Shown: piece by piece, positions 875 to 27,774 of the stretch
Numbering within the stretch: the stretch's first letter is position 1
How the letters are laid out: each line of letters opens with the position of its first letter
DNA from: a virus
Reading direction: 5' to 3' (one strand)
DNA: 27,791 nt
IMG/VR virus record: IMGVR_UViG_3300023174_000534
Location: 1 to 27,791 of that record
The notes under the pieces: generated by a model
What the model was told of the DNA's origin: nothing
What the model saw: the letters and a program-made list of their open reading frames with translations, nothing else
The model's database searches: none
Translations under genes and position numbers: made by a program

Positions 875-2665
875 ATGTCCTTTAATAAGCATTACTCTAA
901 TTTTAGAAAAGCGGAAAAATATTCTCAAGAAGAAGCTGAACAGCCTGGTGTTTCTTTAACAGACATAGATCCATACCAAATTTCAGCGCCTGGCTCTTTT
1001 GTAAATCCATCACAGAGACGCGCTGGCGGCAAGTCAACATTTGTTAATACAGCATCAGAATTGCCTGCAACAGTAGGATTCAAAGATTACAATCTACCTG
1101 CTTCTAATTCAAAGATGCTAGTAACATTACTCAATGTTAGCATTCTCACCAAACAGCCAATGTTGGTATATGGTGATGCTGGTATTGGTAAATCTGATAT
1201 CATCAGACAAACTGCCAAAGCTTCAACACCTTCAAATCGCAAGTTTGTTATGTGGAAGGATATTGTTGGTAACATGGAAGCATTTTTATCTGGTCCAGAT
1301 GTTAAAAATTCTTATGTGTTATTTGATATGCGTGCTTCTGAGTATCTTCCAGAAGATATTCGAGGTATTCCTGACATCAACGCTACTGTCGATTTTTTGA
1401 GATATAAAGCGCCAGCATGGGTTATGTGGTGTACACATCCAGATGCTGCAGGTATTCTTTTCTTTGATGAATTGAATCGTGGTATTACACCAACTCTCAA
1501 CTCATTGCTTCAGATTACATTGGACCGCGTCATTGTTGAAAAACCTGTTGCTGCAGGCGTTGCAATGATTGCAGCTGCTAACTTGGGTTCTGAATTCAAT
1601 GGTACATCTGAACTTGATCCAGCTCTCCGCAACAGATTTGCGCAAGGTGCATTTGTTGCTGATCCTGAATCTTGGATTGAATATGCACAAAAAAATGGCG
1701 TTCATCAAGATGTCATTGACTTTGTTAAAGTTAATGCAACTGGTGAACAAAAAAATGGTGAATTCAATGCATTTTATCAAGTACCAAGTGGTCCAGAAGA
1801 TCAAGCGTTTGTATCTCCTCGTGCACTTGTATTGTTTTCCAATACCTATAAAAAGATCCATGAGCTGTATGACAAAGCTGTAGAAAGTGGTGAAGAGCCT
1901 GATGCAAATCATTATTTAGCAATGACAGAAACTAACGCTGCACAATACTGTGGCAGACCTTGGGGTGTAGCATTTGCAACATTTGTACGTAACATGGCAT
2001 TGTTTGATTTGGATGATCTTGCATACAAAACCGAGACGCAATCCATTGAAGATTTATCCAAAGATCCAAAAACAGGTACCATCAGCATCTCTACAACCAA
2101 CAGTTACATCAGCTTTGTAGGACGTGCATTGTTATACAATCTAAGACCAGATGTAAGATATACACCTGAAGGTATCAAAAATTTAATGAATCTCAGCAGA
2201 ATTTTGCCTAAATTCAGACAAGAGGGCATTGGACAGATTCGTAGCACTCTCAAGATGGCTCATCCAGGTGGTATGCTTCAAGGTAAGATCATTGCTGAAG
2301 GTGGTGATTTCATGAGCAAGTTCTTGGTAGATGAAGAGAAGAGATACAAAGGACTTGTGTCTGCTGCTTCACAGCTCAAAATGAATGATGAAGTACAAAT
2401 TGATGCATTCATCAAAGGCATGTATGCCAATGCTAAATTGGACGCGCGGGAGTTGGACAAAGCTCTTGATACATTTAAAAATCTTTTGAGTCGCAATAAA
2501 GGAGATGGTGCCAAGTCATTTGAAGATCTTAATGTAGTTATACCTGGTGTATTGCCTGCAGATGCTTGTACAAATATCAAGAGTACCATTATTAAAAGCC
2601 TCAGTGGAGCAGCAAGCAAGGATAAAGCACGCCGCGCAGCAACAAAATTTAGTACATTTGGCTGA
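875..2665 (+). CDS. MoxR-type AAA+ ATPase
   Basis: A 596-residue P-loop ATPase. Walker A is GDAGIGKSD near residues 100-108, Walker B is ILFFDELNRG near 194-203, and RNRFAQG near 250 suits the arginine-finger/sensor region of MoxR/RavA-like proteins. These ATPases form hexamers that remodel partners, often VWA proteins such as the one just upstream. The C-terminal ~300 residues are an extra, mostly helical region that I do not recognise. The ATG at 875 is set five bases after an ATAAATA box. The two genes probably work as a pair. Whether they act in head assembly, host takeover or cofactor insertion is not visible. Confidence 0.85.
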   Translation: MSFNKHYSNFRKAEKYSQEEAEQPGVSLTDIDPYQISAPGSFVNPSQRRAGGKSTFVNTASELPATVGFKDYNLPASNSKMLVTLLNVSILTKQPMLVYGDAGIGKSDIIRQTAKASTPSNRKFVMWKDIVGNMEAFLSGPDVKNSYVLFDMRASEYLPEDIRGIPDINATVDFLRYKAPAWVMWCTHPDAAGILFFDELNRGITPTLNSLLQITLDRVIVEKPVAAGVAMIAAANLGSEFNGTSELDPALRNRFAQGAFVADPESWIEYAQKNGVHQDVIDFVKVNATGEQKNGEFNAFYQVPSGPEDQAFVSPRALVLFSNTYKKIHELYDKAVESGEEPDANHYLAMTETNAAQYCGRPWGVAFATFVRNMALFDLDDLAYKTETQSIEDLSKDPKTGTISISTTNSYISFVGRALLYNLRPDVRYTPEGIKNLMNLSRILPKFRQEGIGQIRSTLKMAHPGGMLQGKIIAEGGDFMSKFLVDEEKRYKGLVSAASQLKMNDEVQIDAFIKGMYANAKLDARELDKALDTFKNLLSRNKGDGAKSFEDLNVVIPGVLPADACTNIKSTIIKSLSGAASKDKARRAATKFSTFG

Positions 2666-20341: not shown

Positions 20342-20365
20342 ATTTGAAAATTGCTGGTGTTTAAT

Positions 20366-20384
20366 GTGGTTATCCAGCAACCAC
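20366..20384. repeat. stem-loop copy 1 of a repeated 3' element
   Basis: GTGGTT/AACCAC hairpin with a 7-base loop, flanked on the plus strand by ggtgtttaat and tttgactt. A second copy with the same flanks is at 21193-21211. Both lie just past the stop codons of minus-strand genes; on the plus strand they are followed by T-rich tails. Confidence 0.6.
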
Positions 20385-20391
20385 TTTGACT

Positions 20392-20607
20392 TTATTTGCT
20401 CTCTACGAATGCGTACAATTCGTCTGCATAAGCAATGATGTCTTGTATTTTTGGTTTGAGTTCATCAATGAGCTCAACATCAAACTGCTTGTTGCTACGA
20501 ACTGCATTATCGCGATGCGCACCCAGCTTTTCGTGATACTGATTCATGAGTGTACCATGAGCCATACCAAGAACTTCCAAGCGAATTTCATATGCGTTTT
20601 TATTCAT
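20392..20607 (-). CDS. hypothetical helical protein, 71 aa
   Basis: Opens MNKNAYEIRLEVLGMAHG and is helical and charged (DELKPKIQDIIAYADELYAF), with no recognised domain. Its upstream sequence (minus strand, ACATACACACAC just before the ATG) resembles that of the DUF932 gene at 22252, and both genes end in the same stem-loop element, so they may share regulation. Confidence 0.65.
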   Translation of the reverse strand: MNKNAYEIRLEVLGMAHGTLMNQYHEKLGAHRDNAVRSNKQFDVELIDELKPKIQDIIAYADELYAFVESK

Positions 20608-20624: not shown

Positions 20625-21215
20625 TTCTATCTCTTGTGAGAGAAAATGACTGAAGGTTTCAACGACTCCTACAAACGTATTCTGTATTTTCTAGAATGCC
20701 TATTCGACAACGGCATACAGAATTGGTGGCCGAAATGGGCGGTCTGTTTTCTCCTCTATCGAAGTCGATAATCACTTCATGGAACCAAGGACTGACTCGC
20801 AATATCGAAATTAGTGTGGGTGAGATTACTGAATACTCACAAGTCTACAGTTGCGTCGGATTATTCAGCCAGCATCCAATGAGTCAATTACTCTCATTGT
20901 TAATGATGCAAAGGAATGGTTACCTCTAAGACAATACAGCCATCAGTATATAAACGATTTGTTGTCTTCTTACGTCACCAAGATTAGGCCAATCTTGGAT
21001 ATTTCAGCTTTATCCGGCACAACATACTCAACCTACTTGGCGTCTTTCCAGACGTTGCATAGTGCATTATGGACTGGCGGTCCATTGTTCTGCCACCACG
21101 GAATTTTTCAAAGATCAATGAGCTTCTTGCTGCTCTGTGTTATTAACTTAACTGCTTTTAGTGCAAAAGCAACTAAAATGTAGGTGTTTAATGTGGTTAT
21201 CCTACAACCGCTTTG
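20625..21215. ncRNA. candidate large ornate non-coding RNA (ROOL/GOLLD-like setting)
   Basis: About 590 bases without a credible gene on either strand but packed with perfect local hairpins: ATTCTGT 20679-20685 with 20717-20723, enclosing ATGCC/GGCAT; TATCGA 20757/20765; GTGAG 20820/20836; GCATC plus CAATGAG 20872-20883 with 20893-20899 and 20905-20909; AAGACAA 20928/20962; CCAAGATT 20978/20991; CGTCT 21041/21050; ATGGAC 21069/21080; TGCTTTT 21153/21165; end hairpin 21193/21206. Giant ROOL and GOLLD RNAs of 500-800 nt are known beside phage tRNAs. I cannot match it to either by sequence. Strand unresolved: G-U extensions at two stems and a T-rich tail favour plus, neighbouring genes are minus. 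Confidence 0.6.
21193..21211. repeat. stem-loop copy 2 of a repeated 3' element
   Basis: GTGGTT with AACCGC: relative to copy 1 one base differs so that the plus-strand RNA keeps a U-G pair, while the minus-strand RNA would have an A-C mismatch. Flanks match copy 1. A T-rich tail (tttgacttagttttt) follows on the plus strand. Confidence 0.6.
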
Positions 21216-21217
21216 AC

Positions 21218-22252
21218 TTAGTTTTTGTAGATGTCTACAATGTTGAAGTTGAGATTTGGACCTTTGACAAACATATCAGATGCAACTTTGTTGAGCCTTG
21301 TTGCAGCACCTGCACCCAGCACATCGCGTTTGTGAGTTGCAGCAGCAGTTGCTACATTGAAGATGTCATACAAATTGTGGTTGGTAGCAACCAGTTTCTT
21401 CTGATTGGCATTGAAGCCTTTGTTGAGATTGATGCCTTTGCGAGCATAATCAGCAATGGTGTCAGTGTATTGCGGAAATTCATCCAACAAGTTGAGACCA
21501 CGTGATGACTCTTCTTGTGAACCAAACGCATTTGCTACAGCTTGCAACTCAGCAAAGCTGGCTCGCGCATCTTTGAGAGCATCAACACGAGGCTTGATGC
21601 CCCGCGCAAAAGCATCATTGGCACTGAATTTGAGATATTGCTTGCCAACATCACCAATGGTATTGAGACGATAACCAACAGCTTCTTTGGTGGTCATGCC
21701 ATTGGTACAAATGAGACGCAAAAAGAAGTTGCTGAATTGATTGGCAGAACGGCCAATGTTGATGCTGGTACCAAACTTCCAGTCATCTCCTGCTCCCAAT
21801 TGCACATCATGTGCATGAGACGTTTCAACAATGACTTGACAGCGGTCACCATTGAACCAAATGTTGTGAAATTCATTGTTGCTGCTGTTGATGGCATCAA
21901 CAAGTTTATCAATGTCTTTGTCAAAGTTGAGCTGTTCAACTGCAAGAGCATCTTTGGTGAGCGTAGCAACTGTATTATCAGCGCGAACAATGCAACCAAA
22001 CTTTTTCTGCTGACTGATGCTGTCCAATGCCTGACGAATGGTATTCCAATTTTCAGTTGGATTCTGCATGATTTCGTTGGACAAGTTGTGACGAATACCC
22101 AGAGTATTCATGATGTCTTCAACTTTGTTGAAACGGTATTCATTGTTGATGACCAGACTGTTGCCTTGCGCTTCAACATTGCTAGTTGTAAAAGGAACAA
22201 TGCGATGACTCTTAACGACGTTTTTGACTTGTTCAATGGCTTGTGTATTCAT
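21218..22252 (-). CDS. DUF932 family protein
   Basis: 344 residues. FSNFFLRLICTNGMTTKEA near residue 180 is the hallmark of DUF932 (phage/plasmid-like TIGR03299 proteins: R-x-x-C-x-NGM). The N-terminal part (FTTSNVEAQGNSLVI, IDKLVDAINSS) and the helical C-terminus fit the family length. Its function is unknown; relatives occur on phages and plasmids. It is followed by the repeated stem-loop, then by the candidate large RNA. Confidence 0.8.
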   Translation of the reverse strand: MNTQAIEQVKNVVKSHRIVPFTTSNVEAQGNSLVINNEYRFNKVEDIMNTLGIRHNLSNEIMQNPTENWNTIRQALDSISQQKKFGCIVRADNTVATLTKDALAVEQLNFDKDIDKLVDAINSSNNEFHNIWFNGDRCQVIVETSHAHDVQLGAGDDWKFGTSINIGRSANQFSNFFLRLICTNGMTTKEAVGYRLNTIGDVGKQYLKFSANDAFARGIKPRVDALKDARASFAELQAVANAFGSQEESSRGLNLLDEFPQYTDTIADYARKGINLNKGFNANQKKLVATNHNLYDIFNVATAAATHKRDVLGAGAATRLNKVASDMFVKGPNLNFNIVDIYKN

Positions 22253-26315: not shown

Positions 26316-26416
26316 TTTAAATTTTACTATCAAAGATCTTTGTTGTTTCTTATCAACACCAACACTATGGCGTCTTCTATGAAACAATCAACTGTGTTTC
26401 CTACTTTTTTTGAAAT

Positions 26417-26490
26417 TGGTCGCTCCCGTGGGGATTGCACCCACTTAACACCGCTTATGAAACGGTCCGAGATCCTTACCTCCCGAGAGC
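26417..26490 (-). tRNA. third tRNA with CAU anticodon
   Basis: Acceptor GCTCTCG/CGGGAGC, A73, CCA. Anticodon stem ACCGT/GCGGT, loop TTCATAA. D-arm GAG/CTC with GTAAGGAT. T-stem GTGGG/CCCAC, loop TGCAATC. Positions 8-9 read GG rather than T8. Confidence 0.83.
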
Positions 26491-26658: not shown

Positions 26659-26665
26659 ATTAAAT

Positions 26666-26744
26666 TGGTGCTTCAGGTGGTAGTTGCAACCACACGAATA
26701 TTCTGGTTAAGAGCCAGCTGCCCGTCTACTGTAGCTTCTGAAGC
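26666..26744 (-). tRNA. tRNA-Lys(CUU), G55-type elbow
   Basis: Acceptor GCTTCAG/CTGAAGC, A73, CCA. Anticodon loop CTCTTAA. D-loop ACAGTAGACG. T-stem GTGGT/ACCAC, loop TGCAACT. Close paralogue of tRNA-Lys(UUU) at 27274. Confidence 0.88.
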
Positions 26745-26754
26745 ATGTTGAAAT

Positions 26755-27264: not shown

Positions 27265-27273
27265 ATTTGAAAT

Positions 27274-27352
27274 TGGTACTCCAGGAGGTAGTTGCAACCT
27301 CACGTATCATCCGCTTAAAAGGCGGCTACCCGTCTACTGTGGCTTCTGGAGT
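27274..27352 (-). tRNA. tRNA-Lys(UUU), G55-type elbow
   Basis: Acceptor ACTCCAG/CTGGAGT, A73, CCA. Anticodon CCGC/GCGG, loop CTTTTAA. D-loop ACAGTAGACG. T-stem GAGGT/ACCTC, loop TGCAACT. The upstream gene runs 27 bases into it. Confidence 0.88.
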
Positions 27353-27583
27353 ATTTAAATTATTTGGCCAGGGCTTTTTCGCCCATGCATGATAATAAGC
27401 TGTGTGCTCTCTAGCTTCAACTATTATCTTTTGAATTTCTTCATCTTGTGGATTCCAATCGCCACTCTCTTCTGACAAGAGTGCAATTGCATAATCCAAA
27501 TGACTTTGTGCTGAACAAGGAGCATCATCTTGCTTGAGGCAAAAATTTGCAATGTGAACTAATGCTTGTTGTTGTTTAGTCAT
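27326..27583 (-). CDS. hypothetical protein, 85 aa, ending inside tRNA-Lys
   Basis: Opens MTKQQQALVHIANFCLKQ, helical, with SEESGDWNPQDEEIQKII and a final NTPEATVDG encoded by the 5' part of tRNA-Lys. The stop TAG lies in the tRNA D-arm region. Length and composition suggest a real gene that lost its own stop when the tRNA was placed behind it. Not recognised. Confidence 0.6.
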   Translation of the reverse strand: MTKQQQALVHIANFCLKQDDAPCSAQSHLDYAIALLSEESGDWNPQDEEIQKIIVEAREHTAYYHAWAKKPWPNNLNTPEATVDG

Positions 27584-27594
27584 GTTATTGAAAT

Positions 27595-27678
27595 TGGTAG
27601 CTCAGAAGGGAGTTGCACCCTCAAGGATCACCGATTTTAAGTCGGGCCATTCTGCTGTTTCTGGTTATCCACTGAGCC
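27595..27678 (-). tRNA. tRNA-Leu(UAA), second type, enlarged D region
   Basis: Acceptor GGCTCAG/CTGAGCT, A73, CCA. Anticodon loop CTTAAAA on stem CCGA/TCGG. About 25 bases replace the usual 19 before the anticodon stem. Variable region GATCCTT, whose ATCC can pair with GGAT of the D region. T-loop TGCAACT. Confidence 0.85.
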
Positions 27679-27681
27679 ATT

Positions 27682-27765
27682 TGGTAGCCTCGGAGGGAGT
27701 TGCACCCTCAAGGATCATCGCTTTTGAGGCGAGCCGTTCTGCTGTTTCCGGTTATCCACAAGGCC
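27682..27765 (-). tRNA. tRNA-Leu(CAA), second type, enlarged D region
   Basis: Near-identical in design to the preceding gene: acceptor GGCCTTG/CGAGGCT, A73, CCA; anticodon stem CTCGC/GCGAT, loop CTCAAAA; variable GATCCTT; T-loop TGCAACT. A tandem duplicate with a changed anticodon. Confidence 0.85.
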
Positions 27766-27774
27766 ATTTGAAAT

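Follow-up and report, generated by a model that had tools for sequence, protein, structure and literature searches.

To our knowledge, few natural RNAs self-assemble, and the functions of those that do are poorly understood. ROOL, which is multimeric, is a large and ornate RNA that is found in phages, near tRNA islands. GOLLD is found in phage tRNA arrays, and it has a conserved core, a variable appended region, and a self-complementary loop that covaries. A role in the translation apparatus has been proposed for both GOLLD and ROOL, but it is unproven. OLE is found in extremophilic bacteria and has Oap proteins. One of its loops is a symmetric kissing loop whose sequence changes from one palindrome to another, GGCC among them (PMC12286853). 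Another RNA, manA, is phage-borne and is filed in Rfam (RF01745) as cis-regulatory, having been placed in what may be 5' UTRs of genes for metabolism (PMC2864571).

We analyzed 27,791 nucleotides of viral DNA from IMG/VR (record IMGVR_UViG_3300023174_000534), which we will call the window. A reading of the sequence alone had proposed that positions 20625-21215 might encode a member or an unrelated analogue of ROOL and GOLLD, or possibly a new class of RNA. The RNA that we found there resembles these families in its size class, its place in phage tRNA arrays, its ornate and pseudoknotted fold, and its predicted self-association. Like GOLLD, it has a variable region appended to its core, and like OLE, it has a putative symmetric kissing loop whose palindrome varies from sequence to sequence. 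Nevertheless, it is very improbable that this is a divergent ROOL or GOLLD. The ROOL model (RF03087) had no matches in 16 records at E ≤ 10, yet it found our positive control, the plasmid pMP118, at E = 1e-29. Conversely, our own covariance model of the RNA (R1, described below) did not match this ROOL plasmid. As neither model finds the other RNA, by sequence or by structure, the ROOL reading is already largely refuted. The GOLLD model (RF02032) found nothing significant at the locus, by a model search only (the positive control was run for ROOL alone). A single weak GOLLD match elsewhere (G003:9743) is far from the RNA. OLE did not match the locus when we scanned the window with all Rfam families. 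We also considered the abundant lncRNAs of phage K and ICP1 (PMC9241854, PMC7567579), but R1 finds nothing in either genome. By these model searches, membership in ROOL or GOLLD falls away. We did not find a description of this RNA in the open PubMed Central papers that we searched, and it is not catalogued in its present form.

A conserved, pseudoknotted RNA in phage genomes

Rather than a gap, the block at 20625-21215 is an RNA gene, and it lies between the phage's tRNA genes. It is flanked by minus-strand ORFs at 21218-22252 and 20392-20607, and tRNA-Ile and tRNA-Leu are just past these. Neither ORF has a match in Pfam or PHROG, and tblastn found no phage relative of the neighboring 344-aa protein. 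The block had been described as hairpin-dense, and it is: if we count perfect stems with loops of up to 40 nt, there are 8 stems of at least 7 bp, versus an average of 1.3 (standard deviation 1.1) in 100 dinucleotide shuffles, none of which had as many. For stems of at least 6 bp, there are 11, versus an average of 4.7 (standard deviation 2.2), with one shuffle having as many. (The global folding energy of the block is unexceptional, with z = -1.4 for the minus strand and -1.7 for the plus strand, which is too weak to serve as evidence for an RNA.) The block had also been described as gene-free, and this too is correct for proteins. Across 31 homologues, no reading frame is conserved on either strand, and all six frames carry stops (mean of 3.6 to 8.9 stops per frame).

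Two other kinds of elements in the window are worth describing. First, a 43-nt element immediately follows the stop codon of each of two neighboring ORFs (21175-21217 and 20348-20390, both on the minus strand), and related copies occur in L004-L007 and L019. (L numbers refer to loci.) The element reads GGUU-GNNGG-AU-AACC-ACAUUAAACA-CCNNC, which is an H-type pseudoknot, and its second stem covaries between copies (GUAGG/CCUAC versus GCUGG/CCAGC). Second, 85-nt tRNA-like repeats are found on the minus strand at 26409-26490, 26662-26746, 27270-27354, 27594-27680, and 27681-27767. These units have anticodon-like hairpins and an encoded CCA, but their D-arm is odd, as is their T-loop (UUGCAAC or GUGCAAC), and they were missed by both ARAGORN and the Rfam tRNA model.

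The RNA is widespread in phages. Using blastn, we found a 68% identical stretch, with visibly compensated stems, in the 735-kb uncultured phage LR756501, as well as weaker matches in 15 records of Prevotella Lak megaphages. (We read four of these, which the profile confirmed.) A degenerate-pattern search of IMG/VR identified about 30 further loci, most of which the profile recognized at E < 1e-28. A final pattern, placed differently, gave no new members, so our sample from that collection looks nearly complete. The core is common to the IMG/VR phage contigs, the Lak megaphages, and the 735-kb phage. In the 10 RNA-bearing records that were searched whole, there is one copy per record. Plasmids had no match to the RNA. 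Both of the pattern matches in bacterial genomes (L021 and L022) are due to chance, and we excluded L008-L011, L015, L020, L033, L040, L056, L106, L107, and other pattern matches, which are coding or chance.

The conserved core comprises 291 nt on the minus strand (20811..21102), with support from nhmmer, R1, and covariation. With nhmmer, the core of the window is found at E = 9e-66, with the window itself in the training set. R1 represents the central 118 positions, and neither the window nor its nearest relatives were used to build it; it finds the held-out window at E = 3.8e-17. Covariation among homologues, which the sequence-only reading had proposed as a check, is overwhelming. When 31 diverse sequences are aligned, 16 Watson-Crick column pairs exceed the scores from all 40 tree-based null simulations. 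In our 63-pair model, which includes a pseudoknot, 93.7% of cells are paired, versus 67.8% when shuffled and 34-47% when slid. Double changes are seen for 55 of the 63 pairs (481 cells; 0 of 500 shuffles were as good). P2 is under-counted in this tally because that alignment shifts it by one column. The tool counts 13 helices in the model, and we refer to P0, P1, P2, P2b, a two-part long-range P7, P3, P4, P5, P6, P6b, P8, and the P2-loop pseudoknot.

The core is closed by P0, which pairs GUGG (21096..21099) with CCAC (20816-20819); the corresponding alignment columns (9-394, 10-393, and 11-392) show several types of pairs and are paired in 71, 90, and 97% of cells. Next is the P1-P2 domain (21063..21095), which reads UGGC-AGAACAA, then P2 (AUGGAC/GUCCAU), and then UAAUGCA. 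The P2 loop, GCCA (21075..21078), forms a pseudoknot with UGGC at 20939-20942. The pseudoknot is 97% paired, with double changes at all four positions, and columns 31-226 score above every null simulation. The 5' strand of P7 (GGA.UAA.AGC, 21007..21015) pairs, across an internal loop, with 20858-20869, and columns 105-345, 106-344, and 112-335, which are 94-100% paired, exceed every null simulation. P4 (AAGACAA/UUGUCUU, 20928..20968) encloses both the invariant CAAAUCG and the pseudoknot strand; it is 100% paired and is among the top covarying pairs. The P5 hairpin (20910..20927) has the conserved loop UAACCAUU and is 94-100% paired, while the P6/P6b hairpin (20872..20909) includes the pair with the strongest covariation anywhere in the alignment (259-331). 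At the 3' end, the P8 hairpin (GUGAG-UAUUCAGUAAU-CUCAC, 20820..20840) is 100% paired, with double changes in 4 of 5 pairs. All of these helices are on the minus strand, as is an optional 3' accessory module (20642..20736), which is apparent from the alignment and includes a 9-bp stem (AUUCUGUAU/AUACAGAAU) and more. This module is conserved in close relatives but is absent from L005.

Overall, our computations establish the existence of the RNA, its strand, its fold, its pseudoknot, its limits, and its wide spread, and we consider it nearly certain that the block encodes a structured RNA. The earlier suggestion that a large and ornate RNA accompanies the phage tRNAs was right.

Relationship to manA

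When we scanned the window with the entire Rfam library, there was one sub-threshold match in the core: manA, at its 3' end. The match to RF01745 is just 18.2 bits (E = 0.03), which does not reach Rfam's gathering cutoff of 55.2 bits. RF01745 matches 10 of 17 records, nearly always on the core, with best E values of 5.2e-8 and 8.5e-8, and a library-wide scan of L031 found manA at E = 1.1e-5. Even the best score among the relatives (28.7 bits) is below the cutoff, while true cyanophage manA loci score 146-188 bits.

The phage-borne manA and this RNA have several elements in common: a 5' start of GUGACUGAAUAA, a hairpin (P2), and UAAGG; a 3' GGUAnnCAnnAAUCC hairpin (UUGUnGGUAnnCAnnAAUCCnACC), whose counterpart here is P8; and a closing stem. 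In the window, the manA-like elements are GUGGCAGAACAA..UAAUG and UAUUCAGUAAUC. On the other hand, manA is about 190 nt, versus about 290 nt for the core of this RNA, whose middle (P2b, the P3 kissing hairpin, P4, P5, and P6) differs from manA or is added. As for the middle stems P3 to P5 of the manA consensus, cmscan aligns the 3' stems of manA to P4/P5, with many non-standard pairs. Given the RF01745 matches and the common start, 3' hairpin, and closing stem, we assigned the RNA to a manA superfamily rather than to the Rfam family as defined. Judging from these resemblances, we are quite confident of the link to manA: this RNA is probably a distant and larger relative. It would represent a large branch in tRNA arrays, and Rfam's manA would be a compact branch in cyanophages. 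The sequence-only interpretation is partly supported: by our model searches, the RNA belongs to neither ROOL nor GOLLD, but given its distant tie to manA, it is not a new class that is wholly isolated.

Some loci yield two manA matches. In L031 and its relatives, the core contains two copies of GUGnCUGAAUAA, each followed by a UUG hairpin (P5 or P8) with a GGUAnnCA..AAUCC-like loop, which suggests the internal duplication of a manA-like unit.

If the RNA functioned as Rfam's classification of manA implies, then it would be a cis-regulatory leader or a riboswitch-like element of the downstream gene, and in the window, a 71-aa ORF (20392-20607) does come next. We consider this unlikely. Unlike manA, this RNA occurs in tRNA arrays: for most loci, there are tRNAs on the same strand no more than about 1 kb away (roughly 26 of 35 by our tally; there is no tRNA in the stretch examined for L001, L013, L053, L030, L035, L048, L052, or L055). 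The RNA often directly abuts a tRNA, and in L012, L014, L016, L018, L019, and L046, a tRNA is the next gene downstream. The known manA loci do not fit a leader well either. We read eight cyanophage manA loci, and each has its own promoter (11-12/12). The genes downstream are unrelated (purL, small hypothetical ORFs after gp23, gp32, talC, and an unknown gene after ferredoxin), and in P-SSM7, there is a terminator directly 3' of manA. Because of these promoters, the differing neighbors, and the terminator in P-SSM7, we question whether manA is a riboswitch; a stand-alone RNA fits better. (In several of the cyanophage manA loci L098-L105, the -35 box of the manA promoter, TTGACA, is part of a hairpin that belongs to the upstream gene and resembles an intrinsic terminator, GAGGGTGCTTGACACCCTC TTTTTTT, which is followed by TATGCTATAAT.)

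The self-complementary loop of P3

P3 is a hairpin, CCAAGAUU-GGCCU-AAUCUUGG (20978..20998, minus strand), that is predicted to form a symmetric kissing loop. In the window, the loop tetranucleotide is GGCC (20987-20990, minus strand), which is self-complementary. If G-U pairs are allowed, the tetranucleotide is self-complementary in 31 of 31 sequences, versus an average of 15.9 in permutations, and none of 20,000 permutations was as high. The variants are GGCC (13 sequences), GUAC (11), GGUC (4), GGCU (2), and GCGC (1), and the central dinucleotide changes 9 times on the tree. For example, L032 and L034 are closely similar in this region except for a change from GUAC to GCGC. The two middle bases of the loop, which are in adjacent columns (131-132), covary with a score of 41.5 (null maximum of 34.6), and neither of them has another significant covarying partner. 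Adjacent bases cannot pair within one molecule, so the pairing should be intermolecular. Kretsch et al. made the same argument for the symmetric kissing loops L9.3 of OLE and L21a of GOLLD (PMC12286853). These patterns strongly suggest that two copies of the RNA pair via P3, either as a dimer or within a larger homo-oligomer.

A self-complementary loop could also serve another partner. The conserved RNA might act on its own, as a monomer, or together with a protein, and the P3 loop might bind a palindromic site elsewhere or a dimeric protein. Dimerization here is a prediction from sequence, and raiA, which is another large RNA, is monomeric (PMC12286853). However, a fixed external partner would not explain why the loop switches between GGCC, GUAC, GCGC, and other tetranucleotides while always being self-complementary, and we find this alternative rather doubtful. 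We lean towards self-association.

Upstream signals and possible function

Just upstream of the core is the boxA-like sequence GAUCUUUGAAA (21106..21116, minus strand), which is preceded by a boxB-like hairpin, GAGC-AGCAAGAA-GCUC (21120..21135, minus strand). A similar hairpin is at the same position in L005, L006, L014, and L027. In the window's relatives, the hairpin and GAUCUUUGAAA are in the boxB-boxA order of rRNA leaders, in which boxB-boxA serves antitermination (PMC10250234). By analogy, we infer that these may be boxB/boxA-like signals. The motif CTTT[AG]A[AT], in the forms CTTTGAA, CTTTGAT, and CTTTAAA, is upstream in 15 of 33 loci, several of which are close relatives, versus a background of 0.066 per 100 nt. 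In place of boxB and boxA, L031 has a perfect promoter (TTGACA-17-TATAAT) that ends about 25 nt before the core.

Some loci contain other unusual RNAs. About 1.6 kb downstream of the RNA in L012 is a phage-borne tmRNA (1709-2150, minus strand; 97.6 bits for RF00023). In L029 (3716-3788) and L050 (3180-3252), ARAGORN identified tRNA-Pyl with a CUA anticodon, and these are possibly suppressor tRNAs for recoded TAG.

We propose that the core (21102-20811, minus strand) would be transcribed in the same direction as the phage tRNAs, and that the RNA would probably be freed in part by the processing of neighboring tRNAs. Two copies would join via the P3 kissing loop, as a dimer or a larger homo-oligomer, and would serve as a scaffold during infection, most likely through an effect on the translation apparatus (tRNAs or ribosomes). 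This role in translation is suggested by analogy, and we hold it with low confidence. Taken as a whole, it seems fairly probable from the sequence comparisons that this is a stand-alone and self-pairing noncoding RNA of phages, from the large tRNA-array branch of the manA superfamily, that may act as a scaffold in infection.

More broadly, there may be an unrecognized superfamily of self-associating phage RNAs that spans Lak phages, other huge phages, and the compact manA branch, in which case manA would be a free-standing scaffold instead of a riboswitch; our own judgment of this is evenly balanced. At about 290 nt, the RNA is a compact new candidate for self-assembly that is also widely spread, and the prediction about a single loop is testable in vitro. 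Our analysis also ties this RNA to an Rfam family that has long been filed as a riboswitch candidate, and the cultured cyanophages P-SSM2, P-SSM7, and P-HM2 are systems for studying its function.
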